In this document: positions 17,865 to 34,938 of the stretch, piece by piece | Numbering within the stretch: position 1 is the first letter of the stretch | How the letters are laid out: each line of letters opens with the position of its first letter | Assembly: GCA_903913285.1 (NCBI GenBank) | Contig: CAIWKO010000021.1 | Coordinates: 1-38,938 of the forward strand | Length of the DNA: 38,938 nucleotides | Direction of reading: 5' to 3' | Source: an uncultured Bacteroidales bacterium | GTDB taxonomy: Bacteria > Bacteroidota > Bacteroidia > Bacteroidales > CAIWKO01 | Made by a program: the position numbers and the translations under genes | Notes under the pieces: model-generated | Told to the model about the DNA's origin: nothing | Database searches by the model: none | Seen by the model: the letters and a program-made list of their open reading frames with translations, nothing else

Positions 17865-18425
17865 ATGTCTGCTCATAGCGAAAACTCATCATTGAGCGCA
17901 AAACTTCACCAAGCCACAGAAGTCAAAAGTGCAAAGTGTTATCAATGCGGGAAATGTTCTGCTGGATGCCCTTTGTCGACCGAAATGGAATATCCTCCGA
18001 GTGTGATAATGCGCATGCTTCAGACCGAAGATCTAAAGAACGACAGGAAAATCCTCAAATCCCAAACCATTTGGGTATGCGTTTCATGTGAAATGTGTCT
18101 TTCGAGATGTCCCATGGAAATCGATATACCCAAAGTAATGGATTTTATGCGTCAAAAATCTATTGCGGAAGGTTTGTCCAATCCAAAATCAAAGAATATC
18201 ATCAGATTTCATAAAGCCTTTTTGGACTCCATTAAATACACAGGAAGATTGCATGAAATTAGTCTTGTTGCCGATTATAAAATGCGCAGCATGCACCTAA
18301 CGCAGGATGTGATGATGGTTCCGAAAATGCTGTCAAGAGGCAAACTGCCTATTTTACCCGAAATAATTAAGGATAAGAAAAAAGTATCGGGTTTCTTCAA
18401 AAAATCAGAACATACAAATTTTTAA
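17865..18425 (+). CDS. hdrC: heterodisulfide reductase-like subunit C (2x[4Fe-4S])
   Basis: 186 residues, the usual HdrC size. Two [4Fe-4S] motifs are seen: C25-x2-C28-x2-C31-x3-C35 (CYQCGKCSAGCP) and C72-x2-C75-x2-C78-x3-C82 (CVSCEMCLSRCP followed by MEIDIP). Each ends in the C-P that caps ferredoxin-like clusters. HdrC wires electrons from HdrA to the catalytic HdrB. It is the first gene of a seven-gene operon ending with flxA at 24587, and a dyad operator candidate sits in front. No membrane helix is present, so this is the soluble HdrABC form, not HdrDE. The codon usage here is AT-rich, unlike the last genes of the operon. Confidence 0.93.
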   Translation: MSAHSENSSLSAKLHQATEVKSAKCYQCGKCSAGCPLSTEMEYPPSVIMRMLQTEDLKNDRKILKSQTIWVCVSCEMCLSRCPMEIDIPKVMDFMRQKSIAEGLSNPKSKNIIRFHKAFLDSIKYTGRLHEISLVADYKMRSMHLTQDVMMVPKMLSRGKLPILPEIIKDKKKVSGFFKKSEHTNF

Positions 18426-18446
18426 GTTATTTGCCGATGGTTAATT

Positions 18447-18470
18447 GAGCATCTTTCATTGAAGATGCTC
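18447..18470 (+). other. intercistronic hairpin between hdrC and hdrB
   Basis: GAGCATCTT (18447-18455) pairs perfectly with AAGATGCTC (18462-18470) around a TCATTG loop. It is not followed by a T-run, so it is unlikely to be a terminator. It may be an mRNA processing or stability element that sets different levels of hdrC and the downstream genes. Confidence 0.55.
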
Positions 18471-18506
18471 AGTTCAGCACGACAAAACCTAATAAAATAT
18501 AAAACA

Positions 18507-19412
18507 ATGCAGAAAAAAATTGGATATTACCCCGGATGCTCGCTCGAAGGCTCTGCACGCGAATATAACGAATCGGTTCAAACTTTGGCTAAAGCTTTTG
18601 ATGTTACTCTGGAACAGGTTCCTGATTGGAATTGTTGCGGAGCAACTGCTGCTCATAATTTAAATAAGGTTCTGTCATTTGCATTGCCTGCACGTATATT
18701 AGCCAATGCTGAAAAGGCTGGTATGGAGAACATATTGGTACCTTGTGCAGCTTGCTATAACAGGTTGAGTATGGTTCAACACGAACTTGGCAAAAACGAA
18801 TCTTTGCGAAATGAAGTAAATGCGATTATTGAGGCTGACCTGAAATGCAATCTGAAAATTCTAAACATTATTCAGTTTATTCAAATGTTCATTTCGGATT
18901 TTGTAGGCGACAAACAACAATTGCTGTTCAATAAAAAAGTGGCTTGCTATTATGGTTGTTTATTGGTTCGTCCGAATGATGTGCTTGGATTCGATCGGGC
19001 AGAAGATCCGCAAATGATGGATGAGGTGATGAAAAGCCTTGGTGCAGACACGATCGATTGGCCTTTTAAAACAGAATGCTGTGGTGCGGGTTTGTCGGTT
19101 AGCAGAACAGATATAGTCGGGAATCTTTCAGGCAGGATTGTGAAAGAAGCTGCCGACAGAGGAGCTGAAGCCATTATTGTAGCATGTCCGATGTGTCATT
19201 CGAACTTGGATATGCGTCGTCCGGCTATTGAAAAGGCTATTGGCGAAAAGATCGATATTCCTGTGATCTATATTAGTCAGGCGATCGATATGGCGTTGGG
19301 AAAGACTCAAAAGGAAACAGGTATTAACAGGCATTTTGTTCCGGTAAATATTGAACTGAAGAAGAAAGAAGCCGAACCACAAGTGGTAATTGAAAAAACT
19401 GAGGAGAAATAA
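18507..19412 (+). CDS. hdrB: heterodisulfide reductase-like subunit B (CCG domains)
   Basis: 301 residues from ATG 18507, the start that gives the usual KKIGYYPGCSLEGSA N-terminus; an in-frame TTG at 18459 lies inside a hairpin and is rejected. Two CCG domains are complete: PGC...WNCCG...PCAACYNRL and CYYGC...TECCGAG...ACPMCHSNLD. In HdrB these cysteines bind two noncubane [4Fe-4S] clusters where the disulfide is cleaved. The last 30 residues are a charged tail (ELKKKEAEPQVVIEKTEEK). hdrA starts 2 bp downstream. Every CCG cysteine is kept, so catalytic competence is likely. The substrate cannot be read from sequence. Confidence 0.94.
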   Translation: MQKKIGYYPGCSLEGSAREYNESVQTLAKAFDVTLEQVPDWNCCGATAAHNLNKVLSFALPARILANAEKAGMENILVPCAACYNRLSMVQHELGKNESLRNEVNAIIEADLKCNLKILNIIQFIQMFISDFVGDKQQLLFNKKVACYYGCLLVRPNDVLGFDRAEDPQMMDEVMKSLGADTIDWPFKTECCGAGLSVSRTDIVGNLSGRIVKEAADRGAEAIIVACPMCHSNLDMRRPAIEKAIGEKIDIPVIYISQAIDMALGKTQKETGINRHFVPVNIELKKKEAEPQVVIEKTEEK

Positions 19413-19414
19413 TC

Positions 19415-21415
19415 ATGGCACGAATAGGAGTATTTATTTGTCACTGTGGCGAAAACATAAGCGCTACGGTTGATTGTGAAAAAGTAGCGAAAGTTGCTTC
19501 CGAATTTCCGGGGGTTGCAGTGAGTGTCGACTATAAATATATGTGTTCCGATCCGGGTCAAAACCTGGTGAAAGAAGCTATCATTGAACATAAACTTACC
19601 GGAGTTGTCGTTTCGGCCTGTTCCCCGCGTATGCACGAACCTACTTTCAGAAATGCATGTGCTGAAGCCGGATTGAATCCATTTTTATGCGAAATGGCCA
19701 ACATACGTGAACATTGTTCATGGGTGCACGAAAAAGGTGATGCAACTACACAAAAAGCTATTGATATTGTCAGAACTCTTGTAGAAAAAGTGAAACGCAA
19801 TGAAGCTTTGGCGCCAATTTACGTTCCGATCAGCAAAACAGCCGTAGTTATCGGCGGAGGAGTTGCCGGAATTCAGGCTGCATTGGATATTGCCGATGCC
19901 GGTCATAAAGTAGTAATGGTTGAAAGAGAACCTTCCATAGGTGGTCATATGTCGCAACTGTCGGAAACGTTTCCGACCCTGGATTGCTCGCAGTGTATTT
20001 TAACTCCGCGCATGGTTGATGTGGCACGTCATCCGAATATAACTCTATATACCTATGCCGAAATTGAAAGCGTTGACGGTTCCATCGGGAATTTCAATGT
20101 GAAGATACGCCTGAAATCAAAAAGTCTGGATGAAAAGGTTTGTACCGGTTGCGGCGCTTGCATACAGAAATGTCCCGTTAAGAAAATCCCCAGTGAATTT
20201 GAACAGGGATTGGGAATGAGAACTGCTATTTATGTTCCTTTTCCGCAGGCAGTACCCAACAAACCGGTTATTGACCGTAAAAATTGCACGTATTATATCA
20301 AAGGAAAATGCAAGGTTTGTGAAATAGTTTGCCCTACCAAAGCCATACGTTTCGATCAGGAAGATAGTTTTGTGGAAGTTCAGGCCGGTGCATTGCTGCT
20401 GGCTACGGGATTCGATGTGTTGAAAACATCAGCTTTCCCGGAGTACGGTTACGGAAAATACAAGGATGTTATCGACGGTTTGCAATTCGAACGTTTGGCT
20501 TCCGCTTCGGGACCTACAAAGGGAGAAATCCGCCGTCCGTCGGATGGTCAGATACCAAAGAAAATAGTTTTCATTGCCTGTGCAGGTTCACGCGATCCCG
20601 CCAAAGGCAGAGAATATTGCTCGAAAATATGCTGCATGTACACTGCAAAACATGCCATGCTCTATAAACATAAAGTGCACGAAGGAACTCCGTATATTTT
20701 CTACATGGACATCCGGGCAACCGGTAAGATGTATGAAGAATTCGTTCGCCGTGCCATCGAAGAAGATGAAGTGAAATATATCCGCGGACGTGTTTCGCAG
20801 GTGTATGAGAAAAACGGAAAACTAATCGTTAGAGGAGTAGATACCTTGCTGATGGGCCAGCCGGTGGAAATTGAAGCCGACATGGTGGTGCTTGCAACGG
20901 CAGGTATTGCCAACCAGGGATCAGAAGAATTAGCGCAAAAACTGCATGTGTCGTATGATAAACATAAGTTCTTTTCGGAAGCTCATCCAAAACTGAAACC
21001 CGTTGAAACCAACACTGCCGGTATTTTTCTGGCAGGTGCATGCCAATCAACGAAAGACATTCCGGAAACGGTTGCTGCTGCTTCGGGAGCTGCTGCCAAA
21101 GTGGTTGGTTTGTTCTCGAACGATATGCTGAAACGAGATCCTTTGATAGCGATCGTTAAAAAGAGTCCTCCGCCGGTGTATTCAAGTTGTACGGGCTGTT
21201 TCATGTGCATACAGGTTTGTCCGTATCAGGCCATCGATAAAGAAGAGATCAAAGACCGCAACGGAAATATCATAAAAACAATTTCGCATATCAATCCGGG
21301 ATTATGCCAGGGATGCGGCACCTGTGTGGCATTCTGCAAATCGAAATCCATCGATATACTCGGATATAATCACGACCAGGTGTATGCAGAAGTTTCAGCT
21401 TTGCTGAACGAATAG
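19415..21415 (+). CDS. hdrA: heterodisulfide reductase-like subunit A (FAD, multi-[4Fe-4S])
   Basis: 666 residues, standard for HdrA. The N-terminal domain (1-135) has the CHCGENIS start and the VSACSPRMHEPTFR segment. A Rossmann FAD site GGGVAG (147-152) leads into the HdrA-specific CSQCILTPRM (191-200). Ferredoxin-like clusters are CTGCGACIQKC (243-253) and C291/C299/C302/C306, and two more lie at the C-terminus (SCTGCFMCIQVCP and CQGCGTCVAFCK). The FAD of HdrA is the electron-bifurcating site in characterised complexes. The hydrogenase/formate module is absent; FlxD directly follows (33 bp) as the electron entry. No selenocysteine codon is seen. Confidence 0.95.
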   Translation: MARIGVFICHCGENISATVDCEKVAKVASEFPGVAVSVDYKYMCSDPGQNLVKEAIIEHKLTGVVVSACSPRMHEPTFRNACAEAGLNPFLCEMANIREHCSWVHEKGDATTQKAIDIVRTLVEKVKRNEALAPIYVPISKTAVVIGGGVAGIQAALDIADAGHKVVMVEREPSIGGHMSQLSETFPTLDCSQCILTPRMVDVARHPNITLYTYAEIESVDGSIGNFNVKIRLKSKSLDEKVCTGCGACIQKCPVKKIPSEFEQGLGMRTAIYVPFPQAVPNKPVIDRKNCTYYIKGKCKVCEIVCPTKAIRFDQEDSFVEVQAGALLLATGFDVLKTSAFPEYGYGKYKDVIDGLQFERLASASGPTKGEIRRPSDGQIPKKIVFIACAGSRDPAKGREYCSKICCMYTAKHAMLYKHKVHEGTPYIFYMDIRATGKMYEEFVRRAIEEDEVKYIRGRVSQVYEKNGKLIVRGVDTLLMGQPVEIEADMVVLATAGIANQGSEELAQKLHVSYDKHKFFSEAHPKLKPVETNTAGIFLAGACQSTKDIPETVAAASGAAAKVVGLFSNDMLKRDPLIAIVKKSPPPVYSSCTGCFMCIQVCPYQAIDKEEIKDRNGNIIKTISHINPGLCQGCGTCVAFCKSKSIDILGYNHDQVYAEVSALLNE

Positions 21416-21448
21416 TAAACATTGTGAATAATGAAAAAAAATTGAAAA

Positions 21449-21916
21449 ATGGAAACAAATAATAATAACAGCTTCGAACCTAAAGTGGTTGCGTTTGTTT
21501 GCAATTGGTGTACTTATGCCGGAGCCGACCTGACAGGTACCAGCCGTATTAAATACGCGCCGAATGTGAAGATCATCAGGTTTCCGTGTACGGGCCGCAT
21601 CGATTATATGTTGCTGATGAAAGCTTTTGCGAATGGCGCCGACGGCATCATCGTTTCGGGCTGCCATCCCAACGACTGTCATTACACTTCGGGCAATTTC
21701 CATGCACGCCGCCGCTGGATGATATTTCGCAATTTGTGCGATTTTATCGGAATGGATATGAACCGCGTGGTTTTTTCGTGGGTTTCAGCAGCCGAAGGAG
21801 CCAAATGGGCCGAAATTGTGAACACAACCGTCGATACAATCCGGCAGTTGGGTCCCGCAACTTCGTTCCAAAAACTTATTAAAAATTCAGTATTTGAGGA
21901 GGTAGGCAATGAATAA
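21449..21916 (+). CDS. flxD: MvhD/FlxD-like [2Fe-2S] electron-transfer subunit
   Basis: 155 residues, matching the MvhD/FlpD family. The conserved cysteines are C18, C21 (FVCNWCTYAG), C47 (FPCTGR), C72 and C77 (SGCHPNDCHY), which hold a [2Fe-2S] cluster. The protein bridges an electron-input module to HdrA. In methanogens the input is a NiFe hydrogenase or formate dehydrogenase; here the following genes supply a NAD(P)H-oxidising module instead. Its 3' end overlaps the next gene by 8 bases. No hydrogenase large subunit occurs in the window, which argues for the Flx assignment over Mvh. Confidence 0.92.
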   Translation: METNNNNSFEPKVVAFVCNWCTYAGADLTGTSRIKYAPNVKIIRFPCTGRIDYMLLMKAFANGADGIIVSGCHPNDCHYTSGNFHARRRWMIFRNLCDFIGMDMNRVVFSWVSAAEGAKWAEIVNTTVDTIRQLGPATSFQKLIKNSVFEEVGNE

Positions 21917-22712
21917 TATTCAACAGAAAACCAAAGAACTTTTGGAATCGGGCGCTTGTACGCTTATCATAGGATACGAAAAAGGCACGGGCGGAAAAGC
22001 CCGGCCCGTGTTCGTGAGAAAAGCGGAACATGCTGCCAAGCTTATTTTCGACGAAAGTTGCGACCAAAATATAGCCGGCTATTTATACCGTCAGGAAATT
22101 AAAAACGAAAGCAAAAAAGCCATCGTGGCAAACAACCATACGCTGAAAAGCATAGTGGAACTTGCTTCGGAAAACCAGATACATGAAGGTGATTTTATGG
22201 TGCTGGCTTTTACGGCCGAAGGCGAAATCATCGAACTGAAAAGCTTCGAAGAGATAGAAAAGCATGTGGCTACACTTTATCACGGTTTGAATGACGAAGA
22301 CAAAGCTACGATGCAGAAAATTGAAGCCATGACGATGGAAGAACGCTGGGGGTTTTGGGAAAACGAATTTTCGAAATGCATTAAATGTTATGCTTGCCGC
22401 GCTTCGTGCCCCATGTGCTATTGCCCAACCTGCACGGTTGAGATCAATCAGCCGCAATGGATACCGGTGCCCTCGCATACGCTGGGCAATTTGGAATGGC
22501 ATGTGATGAGAGCCATGCATCTGGCCGGACGCTGCATCACCTGCGGACAATGCGCCAAATCATGCCCGCTGGATTTGCCCATACATTTGCTAACTTACAA
22601 AGTTGCTCTTGATTCGGAGCAATATTTCGACAGCGTTGCCGGAACTTCGGTGTGCGCCAACAACGTACTGGCAACTTTTAAAACTGAAGATCACGAAAAT
22701 TTTATCCGTTAA
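21909..22712 (+). CDS. flxC: Flx iron-sulfur subunit, cysteine-rich (FlxC-like)
   Basis: 267 residues. The first 150 residues form an alpha/beta domain with no cluster motif (GACTLIIGYEKGTGGKARP start). Then comes a dense motif with C157, C160, C163, C167, C170, C172 and C175 (CIKCYACRASCPMCYCPTC), followed by a classical CITCGQCAKSCP (209-220). The seven-cysteine patch exceeds one [4Fe-4S] cluster and resembles the one in FlxB, suggesting related folds. The gene overlaps flxD by 8 bases and stops 3 bp before flxB. The FlxC versus FlxB naming rests on gene order and length and could be swapped. It probably carries electrons between FlxA/B and FlxD. Confidence 0.8.
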   Translation: MNNIQQKTKELLESGACTLIIGYEKGTGGKARPVFVRKAEHAAKLIFDESCDQNIAGYLYRQEIKNESKKAIVANNHTLKSIVELASENQIHEGDFMVLAFTAEGEIIELKSFEEIEKHVATLYHGLNDEDKATMQKIEAMTMEERWGFWENEFSKCIKCYACRASCPMCYCPTCTVEINQPQWIPVPSHTLGNLEWHVMRAMHLAGRCITCGQCAKSCPLDLPIHLLTYKVALDSEQYFDSVAGTSVCANNVLATFKTEDHENFIR

Positions 22713-22715
22713 GCC

Positions 22716-23729
22716 ATGGAAAGAAAATTGTTAACCAAAGATTCATACAAACTGCTGATCAGTAAAATTATTTCCGGCAAATATCAGTTGGTTGCTCCGG
22801 TGAAAGTTGATGCACTTGTTGATTTCAGACGCATCAAATCGGCAGACGAAATTACGGAGGATTATATCGTAACGGTTTCTTCGGCAAAGAGTGTTGCGTT
22901 TCCGCGCAACGAAAAGCTTTTTGGTTTTGAGAAAAATAATAAGAAACTGGAACAAACCGATTTTGATTTCGACAGCATCCCGCATACGGTGTTGCTGGGC
23001 GTTCGTCCGTGCGATGCCATGGGCTTTGCATCGCTCACTTCCATTTTTTGCTGGGACAGTGTCGATAAAATTTATACCACCCGCCTGGAACGTACTATCA
23101 TTATAGGCATGAGTTGCGCCAAGGCCGACGCGAGTTGTTTTTGCACTTCGGTAAAAGGCAATCCGGGCAACACAGCCGGAAACGACCTGCTGCTGACCAA
23201 AACTCCGGATGGAGATTATATCACCGAAATCGTTACCGAAAAAGGAGCGAAGCTGGTGGCCGAATTTTATGAACTGTTTAGAGAAGATAAAGGAGCCGAA
23301 AAAGAACCTCTGCTGGCAAATGTGCCCGAGGTGTTCGAATTGGACGGCATCCTGGCAAAGATTAATTCGAAGTTCGACGACGAAGTTTTTTGGAGCGAAC
23401 AAGCCATGCGGTGTTTGGGTTGCGGAGCCTGTGCTTATGTGTGCCCAACCTGCGCCTGTTTCGACATTCAGGACGAAAGCCACGGCAAAACCGGTCAACG
23501 GGTGCGCTGCTGGGATTCGTGCGGGCTGAGTTTGTTCACCCTGCACACTTCGGGCCACAACCCGCGCCAAAATCAGGGACAACGCTGGAGACAACGACTG
23601 ATGCACAAATTTTCGTATATGCCCGACCGCCTCAACACGGTAGGTTGCGTGGGTTGCGGACGCTGTTCGCGCGCTTGCCCGGTGGATATGAACATTGCCG
23701 AACATCTGAAAAGCATTATTGACAACTAA
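22716..23729 (+). CDS. flxB: Flx iron-sulfur subunit (sulfhydrogenase beta HydB-like)
   Basis: 337 residues. Family marks of the HydB/FlxB group are present: VRPCDAMGF (about 96-104), CAKADASCFC (134-143), CLGCGACAYVCPTCACFD (233-250) and CVGCGRCSRACPVD (311-324). The last two bind [4Fe-4S] clusters, and C246/C248 plus the CFC region may bind more. In sulfhydrogenases this subunit passes electrons between the flavin subunit (HydG, like FlxA) and the rest of the complex. It lies 3 bp after flxC and 18 bp before flxA, inside the operon. The DNA is richer in G+C than the hdr half. Confidence 0.86.
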   Translation: MERKLLTKDSYKLLISKIISGKYQLVAPVKVDALVDFRRIKSADEITEDYIVTVSSAKSVAFPRNEKLFGFEKNNKKLEQTDFDFDSIPHTVLLGVRPCDAMGFASLTSIFCWDSVDKIYTTRLERTIIIGMSCAKADASCFCTSVKGNPGNTAGNDLLLTKTPDGDYITEIVTEKGAKLVAEFYELFREDKGAEKEPLLANVPEVFELDGILAKINSKFDDEVFWSEQAMRCLGCGACAYVCPTCACFDIQDESHGKTGQRVRCWDSCGLSLFTLHTSGHNPRQNQGQRWRQRLMHKFSYMPDRLNTVGCVGCGRCSRACPVDMNIAEHLKSIIDN

Positions 23730-23747
23730 AAAAAGATTTCTAATATC

Positions 23748-24587
23748 ATGGAAACACAAAATATTTATCTGCCCTATTTGATGGAAATTGAAAAAATTTC
23801 GGAAGAAGCTCCTTTTGTGAAAACGTTTCGGCTGAAATTTATCAATCCCGAAGATGCCGAAAGTTTTTCGTTTCGCACCGGGCAGTTTGGCGAATATTCG
23901 GTTGCCGGAGTGGGCGAATCGACATTTTGCATCGCCTCGGCGCCCACGCGCAAAGGTTATATTGAATGCACTTTCCGCAAGGCAGGCAGCGTAACCACCG
24001 CCTTGTCGGATATGGAAGAAGGCAGCACCCTCGGGTTCAGAGGGCCTTATGGCAATGTGTTCCCGATTGACGAATGGAAAGGCAAAAGCCTGCTGTTTAT
24101 CGCCGGGGGCATAGCGTTGCCGCCCATGCGAAGCGTGATTTGGAACTGCCTCGACCTGCGCGAAAATTTTAAGGACATCACCATAGTGTATGGCGCCAAA
24201 AGCGTGGCCGACCTGGTTTATAAAGAAGAACTCCGCTTATGGGACGAACGCCCCGACGTGAAACTGGTGACCACTGTGGACCCCGGCGGCGAAACTCCCG
24301 ACTGGAAAGGGGAGGTGGGGTTTGTGCCCACGGTGCTCGACAAACTGGCGCCCAAATCGGAAAACACCATCGCCATTGTTTGCGGACCGCCCATTATGAT
24401 AAAATTTACCTTCCCGATACTGGAAAAATACGGTTTTGCCGACGACATGGTTTATACCACTTTGGAAAATCGTATGAAATGCGGTTTCGGTAAATGCGGC
24501 CGCTGCAATGTGGGGAAAACCTATGTGTGCAAAGACGGCCCCGTGTTCAGCCTGAAACAACTCAAACAATTGCCCGACGAATATTAA
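23748..24587 (+). CDS. flxA: FAD/NAD(P)H-binding oxidoreductase subunit (FlxA, HydG-like)
   Basis: 279 residues in a ferredoxin-NADP reductase fold. The FAD-binding barrel holds GQFGEYSV and the ESTFCIASAP motif (57-66), which replaces the usual RxYS as in sulfhydrogenase gamma subunits. The NAD(P) domain has IAGGIALPPMRS (118-129) and CGPPIM (212-217). The C-terminal C245-x4-C250-x2-C253-x7-C261 binds a [2Fe-2S] cluster. It should oxidise NADH and feed FlxB, FlxC and FlxD, then HdrA. It is the last gene of the operon. Its base composition is strikingly G+C rich (68% counted over 24241-24300, against 28% over 18181-18240 in hdrC). Confidence 0.9.
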   Translation: METQNIYLPYLMEIEKISEEAPFVKTFRLKFINPEDAESFSFRTGQFGEYSVAGVGESTFCIASAPTRKGYIECTFRKAGSVTTALSDMEEGSTLGFRGPYGNVFPIDEWKGKSLLFIAGGIALPPMRSVIWNCLDLRENFKDITIVYGAKSVADLVYKEELRLWDERPDVKLVTTVDPGGETPDWKGEVGFVPTVLDKLAPKSENTIAIVCGPPIMIKFTFPILEKYGFADDMVYTTLENRMKCGFGKCGRCNVGKTYVCKDGPVFSLKQLKQLPDEY

Positions 24588-25748: not shown

Positions 25749-26756
25749 ATGTTTATGAAAAAACTCAGTATCATTTTTTGTTTTCTATCGTTATTGTTTT
25801 TCGGTTGCCATAATCAGCGCACCCGTTTGGTTCTTTATGCTGGTTTCACTCAGGGCGGAACATTTCACATAAAGTTCTATAGCGGGGCAGACAGTACTAA
25901 AATAGAACATGACATCGATTCACTACTGACCGTGATTAGTTCAACAGCATCGGTATTTGATTCCAATTCCATCATCTCAAAAGTGAATGTTAATCAGGAT
26001 GTGGTGCTCAACGAGCATTTTATCAAACTATTCAACAAATCTGTGGAAGTATCAAAAGCCAGCAACGGAAGTTTCGATTTCACCGTGGGACCATTGGTCC
26101 GTGCATGGGGATTTTGGCGCAAAAGAAGAATGGATCTTACCCAAAAGCAGGTCGATAGTTTGAAAGCTTTTGTAGGATACAAAACCGTTTCGCTCAAAGG
26201 CGGAAAAGTCATAAAGCAGCATCCTGAATCGATGCTCGATTTTAACGCCATAGCCCAGGGATACTCAGTTGATGTGATCTCCGAATACCTGATGAGCCAT
26301 AACTGCAACGATTTTGTGGTTGAGGTTGGGGGTGAAGTGCGTTCACACGGATTTAAAAATAAAACAGAAAATTGGCTGGTAGGTATTGAAAAACCTGCAC
26401 CGGATGCAAATTCAAATGAAGTGATTCAAACTAAAATTGCATTGGGGAACAAAGCTTTGGCGACTTCAGGAAACTATCGGAAATTCTTTATAAAAGATGG
26501 AAAAAAATATTCTCATTCCATTGACCCCGCTACCGGATTTCCCGTTCAACATTCCATGCTTAGTGTAAGTGTATTGGCCGACGATTGTTTTACAGCCGAC
26601 GGATACGGAACGGTTTTTATGGTATTAGGACTTGAAAGATCAAAAGAGTTTATAAAAGCTCATCCGGGGCTTGATGCCTATTTTATTTATTCCGATAGTC
26701 TTGGTAATTATAAAACGGAATATACCAAAGGATTTGAAAGTATAATAGTAAAATAA
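25749..26756 (+). CDS. apbE: FAD:protein FMN transferase, lipoprotein (ApbE)
   Basis: 335 residues. A lipoprotein signal ends LLFFGC (lipobox C20), so it is anchored on the periplasmic side. The ApbE core is complete: FDFTVGPLVRAWGF (about 113-126), ESMLDFNAIAQGYSVDVI (about 160-177), VEVGGEVRSHG (about 191-201), ALATSGNYRKF and HSIDPATGFPV with the DDCFTADGYGT metal site. ApbE attaches FMN through a phosphodiester to a Ser/Thr in a D-x-x-[ST]-G-[AS]-T motif of exported redox proteins. No Rnf or Nqr genes are nearby. A possible client in the window is the DUF2271-like protein at 35182-36012, with DATTGST at residues 91-97. Confidence 0.95.
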   Translation: MFMKKLSIIFCFLSLLFFGCHNQRTRLVLYAGFTQGGTFHIKFYSGADSTKIEHDIDSLLTVISSTASVFDSNSIISKVNVNQDVVLNEHFIKLFNKSVEVSKASNGSFDFTVGPLVRAWGFWRKRRMDLTQKQVDSLKAFVGYKTVSLKGGKVIKQHPESMLDFNAIAQGYSVDVISEYLMSHNCNDFVVEVGGEVRSHGFKNKTENWLVGIEKPAPDANSNEVIQTKIALGNKALATSGNYRKFFIKDGKKYSHSIDPATGFPVQHSMLSVSVLADDCFTADGYGTVFMVLGLERSKEFIKAHPGLDAYFIYSDSLGNYKTEYTKGFESIIVK

Positions 26757-33171: not shown

Positions 33172-34938
33172 CTATTTGACGATCTGAATTTTCTTTGTAA
33201 CAATACCTTGTTCGGTTTCGATCTGAACAAAATAGATTCCATTCTGCAGGCTTATGGTGTTGATGTTTGCATTGTTTGCATCTACCAATTGTTTATAAAC
33301 CACAGAACCGACTATATTCAGCAGGGTGAGTTGTTTTATTTTTTCTTTAGAATTTACTGTGATCAGGTTGCTTGCCGGATTCGGAAATACTTCGGTTTGC
33401 AGACTGATACCATTGTTATCAATACCCAGAACAACATCTACACTGATATCGTCTATCATCAGTAGGTCTTGATCTGCAGCACTGCGGCACTGAAATCCAA
33501 GATAATAAGTTCCTGTACTGGGAACTGTGAAATTGGTCGACGATAATGTATAGGTTGTGTTGGTAATGCTGGTCAGGTTAACCAACTGCGTGGTCATAGC
33601 AGCAACTGTATTGCTACTACCTCTATACACTCTCATACGCTCCGTATAGAGGGCTGAAGAACCTTTATAATAATATTTCAGTACATAGTTCGTGCCTGAG
33701 TTATAGGTGGTGCATTTAGTAAAGAACCAGTCGTCGGCAGCTGAAGCTGTATTATATGAGTAACCGATGAAGTCAGTTCCAGTATGCGCATTTGCTGCAT
33801 CGCTGTATAGCCCCCATGTATAACCATCGGTATTGTTATCAGCCACGGTCCATCCATTCAGATCTTCAGTGCTTTCAAAGCCCATAGTAAAAGGAATTGA
33901 AGTGGTACCAACCGTAATTGTGGTGTATGCTGTATCGTTGGTGGCTAGTGCATCACCGGTCAGCGAGGTGTATGCTTTTATGCTATAAGTTCCAGCTGTC
34001 GATAAATTGGCTGCATTGGCACCGGTGAAGGTATACGATGCAGAAGTGCCACCGTTGATAGTACCTGAATAGATTGCTGTAACTGGAGTGTTGTTGTTAA
34101 CCTTGTAGGATACATTAAATCCGGAAATTGCTGAAGACCCTGAATTCAATATTGTTACCACAATATTCTCTGCTGACGACAAAAGGTTGCATGTTGTAAC
34201 AGGAGCAGTTATTGCAGAAACTCCTGCATCGTTGGCGGGTGGTTCAAGCACATTCACATTATCTAGTGCCATCAGGTCGCCATCAGCACCGGTAACCTGC
34301 CATGCAAGCATAAATGGAGCTGATTTGTATGCACTGATATCGATTAAAACCTGTCTCCAAACCCATCCGGTAAAAGCGGGAGTGTTGTTGGCATCCCACA
34401 ACAAATTCCAGGTGCTTCCCCCATCAGTTGATATTTTACACTGAAGAGTGGCACCCGGATTACCCTGTCCGCCTGCCGGCAACCAATCGTAGCTGTATCC
34501 AGCCCAAAATTCAAGGAACAAAGCTGCTGCACCCGAGGTGCCGCTGATTGAAGGTGTTTTTAACCATTCGTTTTGGGTTTCAGCAGGTAGGCTGTAAGGG
34601 CAGATGGTTGAATAAACGTTCGTTGGGTCTATATTGGTGAAAGGATCTGCAGAAGGGTTTCCCTGCATCCAGGTTTTGGTCGTGAGCAGTATACTTTGTG
34701 TCCAGCCTGTCGGTAAAAATGTGCCATCGAAATTCTGAGTCAGGTAAGTGGCTTTTGCCTGTGAATGTTTTGTAGGAAAATAAATTTTTGAATTGCCCGA
34801 TTCCAGATTTTGATTTGTAGTACCCAATGATGTTTTTGATAACACCAGAGGACTTTTTATTGTTTGTTGTGTCTTGATCTGGCCAATGCTGCTAAATGAT
34901 ACAGCAATAGCAATTAATAATAGCGTAAATTTTTTCAT
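33172..34938 (-). CDS. large secreted T9SS-sorted protein with jelly-roll domains
   Basis: 588 residues. A signal peptide ends near SIGQ. Two MAM/cleaved-adhesin-like jelly-roll domains are visible: residues about 68-235 (QNFDGTFLPTGWTQS ... FMLAWQVTGADGDLMALDNVNV) and about 350-505 (MGFESTEDLNGWTVADNN ... YYLGFQCRSAADQDLLMIDDISV). Between them (about 236-345) lies a CARDB-like immunoglobulin fold (NILNSGSSAISGFNVSYKVNN). The last 75 residues are a T9SS sorting domain (VFPNPASN ... ITVNSKEKIKQLTLLNIVG ... NGIYFVQIET ... KKIQIVK). It is probably an adhesin or part of an extracellular enzyme, exported and anchored outside. Terminators on both sides make it monocistronic. Confidence 0.88.
   Translation of the reverse strand: MKKFTLLLIAIAVSFSSIGQIKTQQTIKSPLVLSKTSLGTTNQNLESGNSKIYFPTKHSQAKATYLTQNFDGTFLPTGWTQSILLTTKTWMQGNPSADPFTNIDPTNVYSTICPYSLPAETQNEWLKTPSISGTSGAAALFLEFWAGYSYDWLPAGGQGNPGATLQCKISTDGGSTWNLLWDANNTPAFTGWVWRQVLIDISAYKSAPFMLAWQVTGADGDLMALDNVNVLEPPANDAGVSAITAPVTTCNLLSSAENIVVTILNSGSSAISGFNVSYKVNNNTPVTAIYSGTINGGTSASYTFTGANAANLSTAGTYSIKAYTSLTGDALATNDTAYTTITVGTTSIPFTMGFESTEDLNGWTVADNNTDGYTWGLYSDAANAHTGTDFIGYSYNTASAADDWFFTKCTTYNSGTNYVLKYYYKGSSALYTERMRVYRGSSNTVAAMTTQLVNLTSITNTTYTLSSTNFTVPSTGTYYLGFQCRSAADQDLLMIDDISVDVVLGIDNNGISLQTEVFPNPASNLITVNSKEKIKQLTLLNIVGSVVYKQLVDANNANINTISLQNGIYFVQIETEQGIVTKKIQIVK

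Follow-up and report, generated by a model that had tools for sequence, protein, structure and literature searches.

The stretch of DNA analysed here (38,938 nucleotides; hereafter the window) spans the entire contig C21 (CAIWKO010000021.1) of an uncultured Bacteroidales bacterium, whose genome comprises 4.0 Mb in 70 contigs and is 97% complete. It carries an operon for a FlxABCD-HdrABC (Flx-Hdr) electron-transfer complex. We found that Flx-Hdr is strongly anti-correlated with Rnf in Bacteroidales, inside families too, and that in several members of the order the hdr-flx operon is joined to an operon for a complex I lacking NuoEFG. Rnf and Nqr are the usual sodium pumps. By analogy with a circuit proposed in methanogens, the complex may bifurcate electrons from NADH so as to supply reduced ferredoxin to this headless complex I, in place of Rnf and Nqr; we regard the chances of this reading as evenly balanced. 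More tentatively, and short of even confidence, Hdr-based bifurcation, driven by NADH through Flx or by H2 through Mvh, may form with NuoEFG-less complex I a proton circuit that has repeatedly replaced the sodium-dependent Rnf and Nqr, with Hdr feeding headless complex I and perhaps docking to it. It is the replacement pattern, not the operon itself, that matters, and with the complex I link it goes beyond the original prediction for this window, an earlier note that had singled out the operon for its completeness, its gene order and its occurrence in this phylum.

To describe the distribution we searched 392 genomes of the window's order for FlxC and RnfC (our handles are G for genomes, f for families, L for loci and C for contigs of the window's genome). 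FlxC was present in 43 genomes, RnfC exceeded its cut-off in 329, and both occurred in nine; RnfC was lacking from 34 of the 43 flxC genomes and from 29 of the 349 others (Fisher p 1.8e-23). A permutation within 16 families, keyed by hand, gave seven co-occurrences against 14.1 expected, a value at least as low as this arising in 4 of 200,000 shuffles. Family labels are missing for 22 genomes that lack both genes, and a worst case that adds nine rows by guess left 192 of 200,000 shuffles as low. Genomes with Flx only are spread over 17 families, and eight families (f1, f23, f60, f61, f62, f88, f99 and f113) include both Flx-only and Rnf-only members. Even the window's genus is split: Flx without RnfC over the cut-off occurs in the window's own genome (G000), in G001 and in G003, and G002 has RnfC and no FlxC match. 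The Rnf partner that the original prediction had proposed to look for elsewhere in the genome did not turn up, as profile searches of G000 gave no RnfC over the cut-off, nor any NqrF match.

Partners were compared in 77 genomes, namely the 34 with Flx only, the nine with both and 34 with Rnf only that were picked from families also holding Flx genomes. NqrF was found in 5/34, 3/9 and 31/34 of these, respectively, and was absent from 35 of the 43 flxC genomes. RnfC and NqrF were likewise absent from all seven sampled genomes of a second HdrA lineage and from G205, which stands apart from both lineages (see below), a modest replicate of the pattern. According to the excerpted text of PMC12718326, Rnf is broadly conserved across Bacteroidales. 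Neither the Flx/Rnf exchange nor an hdr-flx-nuo operon in this order is stated in the titles and abstract openings of the literature matches listed by our searches. An excerpt of PMC7382037 counts FloxHdr and Rnf among the electron transfer pathways of digester genomes, and overlap with the Flx/Rnf result is therefore possible.

DNA flanking flxC was fetched from 40 of the 43 Flx genomes; the window, G001 and G009 were examined separately. As a raw count, six of the 40 loci, from four families (f13, f43, f67 and f90), have a complex I operon joined to hdr-flx. In G205, G069 and G221, nuoA starts about 100-210 bp past flxA, and in G124 a single ORF (open reading frame) of 344 amino acids (aa) lies between them; in all four, the whole of nuoABCDHIJKLMN follows flxA on the same strand. 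G069 (L143/L177) has flxD, flxA and nuoH each in two pieces, split either in the genes or in the assembly. In G092 (L181) the same eleven nuo genes are inserted between hdrA and flxD, with nuoH and nuoI recovered by tblastn, and in G177 (L140) nuoH to nuoN lie immediately upstream of flxD on a contig that starts there, with nuoA-D and hdr out of view. We detected no NuoE- or NuoF-like sequence by tblastn in stretches L176-L181. The HdrA proteins of G205 and G124 fall in different lineages of the HdrA tree. Fifteen loci had received a nuo label; L092, L094, L107, L111, L115, L116 and L174 were dropped, having one or two ferredoxin-like nuoI matches only.

The window's own genome carries a related arrangement on contig C22 (L027, L176), where nuoABCDHIJKLMN, a 113-aa gene and then hdrCBA-flpD-mvhGA are contiguous on one strand. 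All nine Nuo proteins scanned had the expected subunit as best match, six of them (B, D, H, K, L and N) over the curated cut-off; the names NuoJ and NuoM were assigned from gene position. The [NiFe] hydrogenase encoded with this paralogous hdrCBA-flpD has VhuA and VhuG as best matches, below cut-off. The 113-aa gene has no NCBIfam match, and relatives of it also follow nuoN in L178, L179, L183 and L140. Genome-wide, the complex I search covered NuoD alone. A full-length-type NuoD (PF00346 at E up to 1e-100) was present in 25/34 Flx-only, 4/9 double and 4/34 Rnf-only genomes, and the window's genome had no match of this type; weaker NuoD-type matches (E 1e-41 to 1e-89), counted by eye, occur in at least 33/34 Flx-only and at least 21/34 Rnf-only genomes. 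Headless NDH-I is known in Bacteroidetes, and an excerpt of the same source states that it does not contribute to NADH oxidation there (PMC6560451).

The reaction and direction of the complex we infer as follows. A hydride from NADH would reach the FAD of FlxA, and electrons would then pass from the [2Fe-2S] cluster of FlxA through FlxB, FlxC and the MvhD-type FlxD to the FAD of HdrA. The subunit matches described below fit this relay, whose order is presumed. At the HdrA FAD the electrons would be split: one branch would follow the HdrA clusters to ferredoxin, and the second would cross HdrC and the noncubane clusters in HdrB on its way to an acceptor of high potential, probably a disulfide. 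The reduced ferredoxin would most likely feed the 11-subunit, NuoEFG-less complex I, since complex I operons are joined to hdr-flx; proton pumping and the quinone chain would follow, and Flx-Hdr and headless complex I together would bypass Rnf and Nqr.

Several observations weigh against this reading. The relation between Flx and Rnf is a correlation, not a function; nine Flx genomes retain Rnf, among them G221, which has Rnf, Nqr and a nuo-joined operon, and 29 genomes lack Flx and Rnf alike. A phylum sample (Flx in 83 of 392 genomes, 20 of the 83 searched for RnfC) gave no independent test because one family dominates its Flx genomes, and among these 20, all from outside the order, three have RnfC over the cut-off and four more have only weaker matches. 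The Rnf of Bacteroides runs in the opposite direction, from ferredoxin to NAD+, in the part of PMC12718326 that treats it. As for complex I, no nuo operon lies in 34 of the 40 fetched stretches (flxA was called in 34 stretches, 30 of which extend at least 1 kb beyond it), nor beside hdr-flx in the window, G001 or G009, nor within the stretches examined from Bacteroides oleiciplenus and Segatella paludivivens. The window's ORFs gave no nuo match, and in its genome the nuo operon adjoins the Mvh-Hdr paralogue on another contig rather than flx. Moreover, the link is not solely to headless complex I: at locus L095, from a named Bacteroidetes metagenome-assembled genome (MAG) that belongs to the second Flx lineage, the complex I genes that follow flxA include some like NuoE and NuoF. 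Finally, the full-length-type NuoD of 25/34 Flx-only genomes could alone account for the replacement of Nqr.

The same distribution could arise if the complex ran in reverse, confurcating electrons from reduced ferredoxin, formed in pyruvate oxidation, and from a thiol pair to NADH, and so doing the electron-transfer job of Rnf without pumping. The loss of RnfC from most flxC genomes would suit such a substitute, as would the ferredoxin-to-NAD+ direction of Bacteroides Rnf and a lesser reverse operation during fermentation that is described for Nitratidesulfovibrio in the excerpted text of PMC12125255. A steady thiol donor would be required, though, and none was identified; NqrF is mostly missing too, and transfer from ferredoxin to NAD+ would not replace Nqr. 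The joined nuo operons, moreover, point to the membrane as the place where ferredoxin is used. We consider confurcation rather unlikely. It is also conceivable that there is no special link to Rnf, and that Flx-Hdr, complex I and the loss of Rnf and Nqr are independent traits of particular environmental lineages. The operon is patchy across the order, and full-length-type NuoD tracks Flx as well. Against this stand the persistence of the Flx/Rnf pattern inside families, the direct joining to nuo in four families and the behaviour of [FeFe] hydrogenase, which does not track Flx (28/34 Flx-only, 6/9 double and 26/34 Rnf-only genomes) and was discarded as a co-varying partner. To our mind such a coincidence of traits is unlikely.

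Least probable by far, and in our view highly improbable, is the mode of sulfate reducers to which the original prediction had referred, in which NADH reduces ferredoxin together with the DsrC disulfide for sulfur metabolism. DsrC is the partner in Nitratidesulfovibrio (excerpt of PMC12125255), and a DsrC-family protein occurs in 17 of the 43 flxC genomes (15/34 Flx-only and 2/9 double), the same-genus G001 included. Yet it is no commoner there than in Rnf-only genomes (14/34; Fisher p 1.0), and the 97% complete genome of the window gave no DsrC (PF04358) match. DsrC was accordingly rejected as a partner for this genome, and the acceptor of HdrB in it is apparently not DsrC. Bifurcation of NADH towards headless complex I remains our preferred reading.

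Turning to the operon itself (Table 1), judged from its sequence it is an ordinary member of the known FlxABCD-HdrABC family, with all seven subunits in the order hdrCBA-flxDCBA, two complete CCG motifs in HdrB, the bifurcation residues of HdrA and the ligands of FlxA (FAD/NAD domain and [2Fe-2S]) and FlxD (the five MvhD cysteines). MvhA and MvhG, which would mark an HdrABC-MvhADG hydrogenase complex, had no match among the window's ORFs and sit on C22 instead. The genes are intact and co-directional from 17865 to 24587. Pfam and NCBIfam domains were as expected (HdrB has two CCG stretches, the fourth gene has an FlpD domain, the clusters of FlxB are HydB/AsrA-like and FlxA is HydG/AsrB/PyrK-like); NCBIfam equivalog cut-offs, set on other organisms, were not reached by the operon's proteins. 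HdrA can be aligned over almost its whole length with HdrA of the solved HdrABC complex (5odc_A, E 5e-202). Its E359 and K412 fall at the positions of E356 and K409 in the Methanothermococcus thermolithotrophicus protein, residues for which a role in bifurcation is given in excerpts of PMC12054007 and PMC9430772; both residues are kept in 59/59 sequences, the window's included. HdrB aligns with solved HdrB, FlxD with solved MvhD, and FlxB and FlxA with Pyrococcus furiosus sulfhydrogenase I. The AlphaFold model of FlxC (mean predicted local distance difference test score 86) had 7bkb_E as its best Protein Data Bank match (E 4e-11), with 8rvu_E also among the best; both are FdhB-type chains from Hdr complexes. 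Cofactor cysteines are invariant across 48-59 homologues per subunit, including 8/8 of HdrC among 48 and 11/12 of HdrB, with all ten of its CCG motifs, in 50; HdrB is predicted to hold two noncubane [4Fe-4S] clusters and a disulfide site.

Table 1. Genes of the hdr-flx operon, in window coordinates.
Gene	Position	Strand	Features and supporting matches
hdrC	17865..18425	+	HdrC-like; two [4Fe-4S] motifs, C25-C35 and C72-C82; Pfam/NCBIfam
hdrB	18507..19412 (likely start)	+	Two CCG domains; aligned with 8rvu_b
hdrA	19415..21415	+	Bifurcating-type FAD subunit with ferredoxin-like clusters; Pfam/NCBIfam, 5odc_A alignment
flxD	21449..21916	+	MvhD/FlpD-like [2Fe-2S] relay, five conserved cysteines; PF02662 E 6e-49; 7bkb_F, 5odc_D
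flxC	21909..22712	+	Putative iron-sulfur relay; C-terminal half resembles ferredoxin part of FdhB-type chains of Hdr complexes
flxB	22716..23729	+	HydB/ShyB/AsrA-like iron-sulfur subunit; 9nez_B E 5e-44
flxA	23748..24587	+	FAD/NAD(P)-binding and [2Fe-2S] subunit, presumed NADH entry; 9nez_C E 4e-62

The ORF of hdrB was called as 18459-19412 from a TTG at 18459. The ATG at 18507 is the likely start because the first 16 residues of the called protein have no counterpart in the G001 orthologue; with it the gap to hdrC becomes 81 bp, as the original prediction had it. Further along, flxD and flxC overlap by 8 bp. The operon is not a chance arrangement, since the same-genus genomes G001 and G003 keep all of it at 78-95% protein identity. 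Taken as a whole, the earlier interpretation held in part. The complete operon with intact motifs was borne out, as were the HdrA residues, judged by alignment, and the placement of FlxA, whose best family matches are hydrogenase-gamma/HydG/AsrB; a role in balancing NADH and ferredoxin would fit as well. What fell away, besides the DsrC link, was the weight placed on gene order and on presence in Bacteroidota, which is not unusual: flxC occurs in 43/392 genomes of the order, and the operon in the named isolates B. oleiciplenus and S. paludivivens. The HdrA of G284, a member of the order, is almost identical to the S. paludivivens protein, and G040 has the same HdrA as a MAG labelled Bacteroides fragilis.

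Gene order was rejected as a sign of novelty. An HdrA scan yielded at least 578 confirmed candidates, and among the best 80 named loci the complete set occurs in this order in 29. Further ORFs separate hdrB from hdrA in two of these, which leaves at least 27/80 without extra genes there; hdrC and hdrB are fused in five, and many others show contig-end breaks, missing gene calls or a different order such as hdrBCA. These loci include Chlorobiaceae, Geobacteraceae, Ignavibacteriota, Planctomycetota and Bacillota. The complete set in this arrangement is also seen in at least 26 of the 40 fetched Bacteroidales loci; the remaining 14 are broken at contig ends or different. Both counts are lower bounds because the ORF caller, which favours the longest ORF, missed real genes, including the window's own flxB in neighbourhood listings. 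The order hdrCBA-flxDCBA is printed for Bilophila in an excerpt of PMC12125255, and its occurrence across many phyla is credited to Ramos 2015 in one of PMC6103483. Two genomes of 1.0-1.2 Mb (G090, L162; G299, L166) retain hdrCBA-flxDCB, and flxA was not found by ORF call or tblastn in their 13-14 kb stretches. The HdrA tree (114 of 127 loci, those with an accepted HdrA length) comes from a quick search supported by the Shimodaira-Hasegawa-like approximate likelihood ratio test only, with long branches flagged and a root that is not clean. It places the Flx loci of the order in three lineages. The main one, a 44-row clade with the window, consists of Bacteroidota or members of the order except for one MAG labelled Ignavibacteriota; the second comprises G009, six f95 genomes and two named MAGs, nine rows in all; and the third is G205, among Ignavibacteriota-like rows.

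Other candidate partners and neighbours were also considered. Contig C68 carries two [FeFe] hydrogenase clusters, one over and one below the NCBIfam cut-off for the NADH-dependent group A6. When the ORFs flanking 25 loci were clustered, no conserved partner emerged, only small groups of genes that look ordinary. An ApbE flavin transferase gene lies at 25749-26756, about 1.2 kb downstream of flxA. The usual targets of ApbE are RnfC and NqrF, neither of which was found in this genome. A functional link was rejected: in the G001 and G003 stretches no ORF matches ApbE or three other neighbours. In G001 (L045) the DsrC-family gene adjoins DsrE-like and rhodanese-like ORFs, neighbours named by eye. 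Contig C51 (L028, 9123-15644) has in a row FlpD, a 918-aa GltD-/HdrA-like protein, a 732-aa HdrA and a 378-aa membrane protein with an HdrC-like part, which we guess to be QmoC-like; similar rows occur in several relatives. A protein with a type IX secretion C-terminal sorting domain is encoded at 33172-34938.

Among known systems the closest are the FlxABCD-HdrABC complexes of Nitratidesulfovibrio vulgaris and Bilophila wadsworthia, which share the seven subunits, their order and the proposed NADH-dependent bifurcation (excerpt of PMC12125255), whereas searches of the window's genome detected none of DsrC, RnfC and NqrF, and relatives show the complex I link. The HdrABC-MvhAGD complex of Methanothermococcus (5odc) has HdrA, HdrB, HdrC, MvhD and the bifurcation residues in common, but here FlxABC replaces the [NiFe] hydrogenase subunits, and the Mvh-type paralogue is encoded elsewhere (C22). 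The acceptor here, unlike that in Methanothermococcus, is presumably not the coenzyme M-coenzyme B heterodisulfide (CoM-S-S-CoB). FlxC resembles the FdhB-type chain of the Fdh-Hdr and Elp-Hdr complexes (7bkb, 8rvu), which differ in that the hdr-flx operon has no formate dehydrogenase catalytic subunit; FlxB and FlxA are homologues of the beta and gamma subunits of P. furiosus sulfhydrogenase I (9nez), whose hydrogenase catalytic subunits are likewise missing from the operon. The exchange of Rnf and Nqr for Flx-Hdr, together with the Hdr-nuo operons, gives headless complex I a candidate electron source that is open to test; the hdr-flx operon itself is available in the two named isolates. The proposed circuit has a parallel in Methanomassiliicoccales, where an excerpt of PMC7374477 proposes Mvh-HdrABC as the ferredoxin supply for headless Fpo. 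That circuit was proposed with transcription and activity data and the Bacteroidales one from genomes alone, but the proposal is the same, soluble Hdr bifurcation serving an 11-subunit complex I-like pump, here in bacteria, with NADH as donor and presumably menaquinone instead of HdrD.

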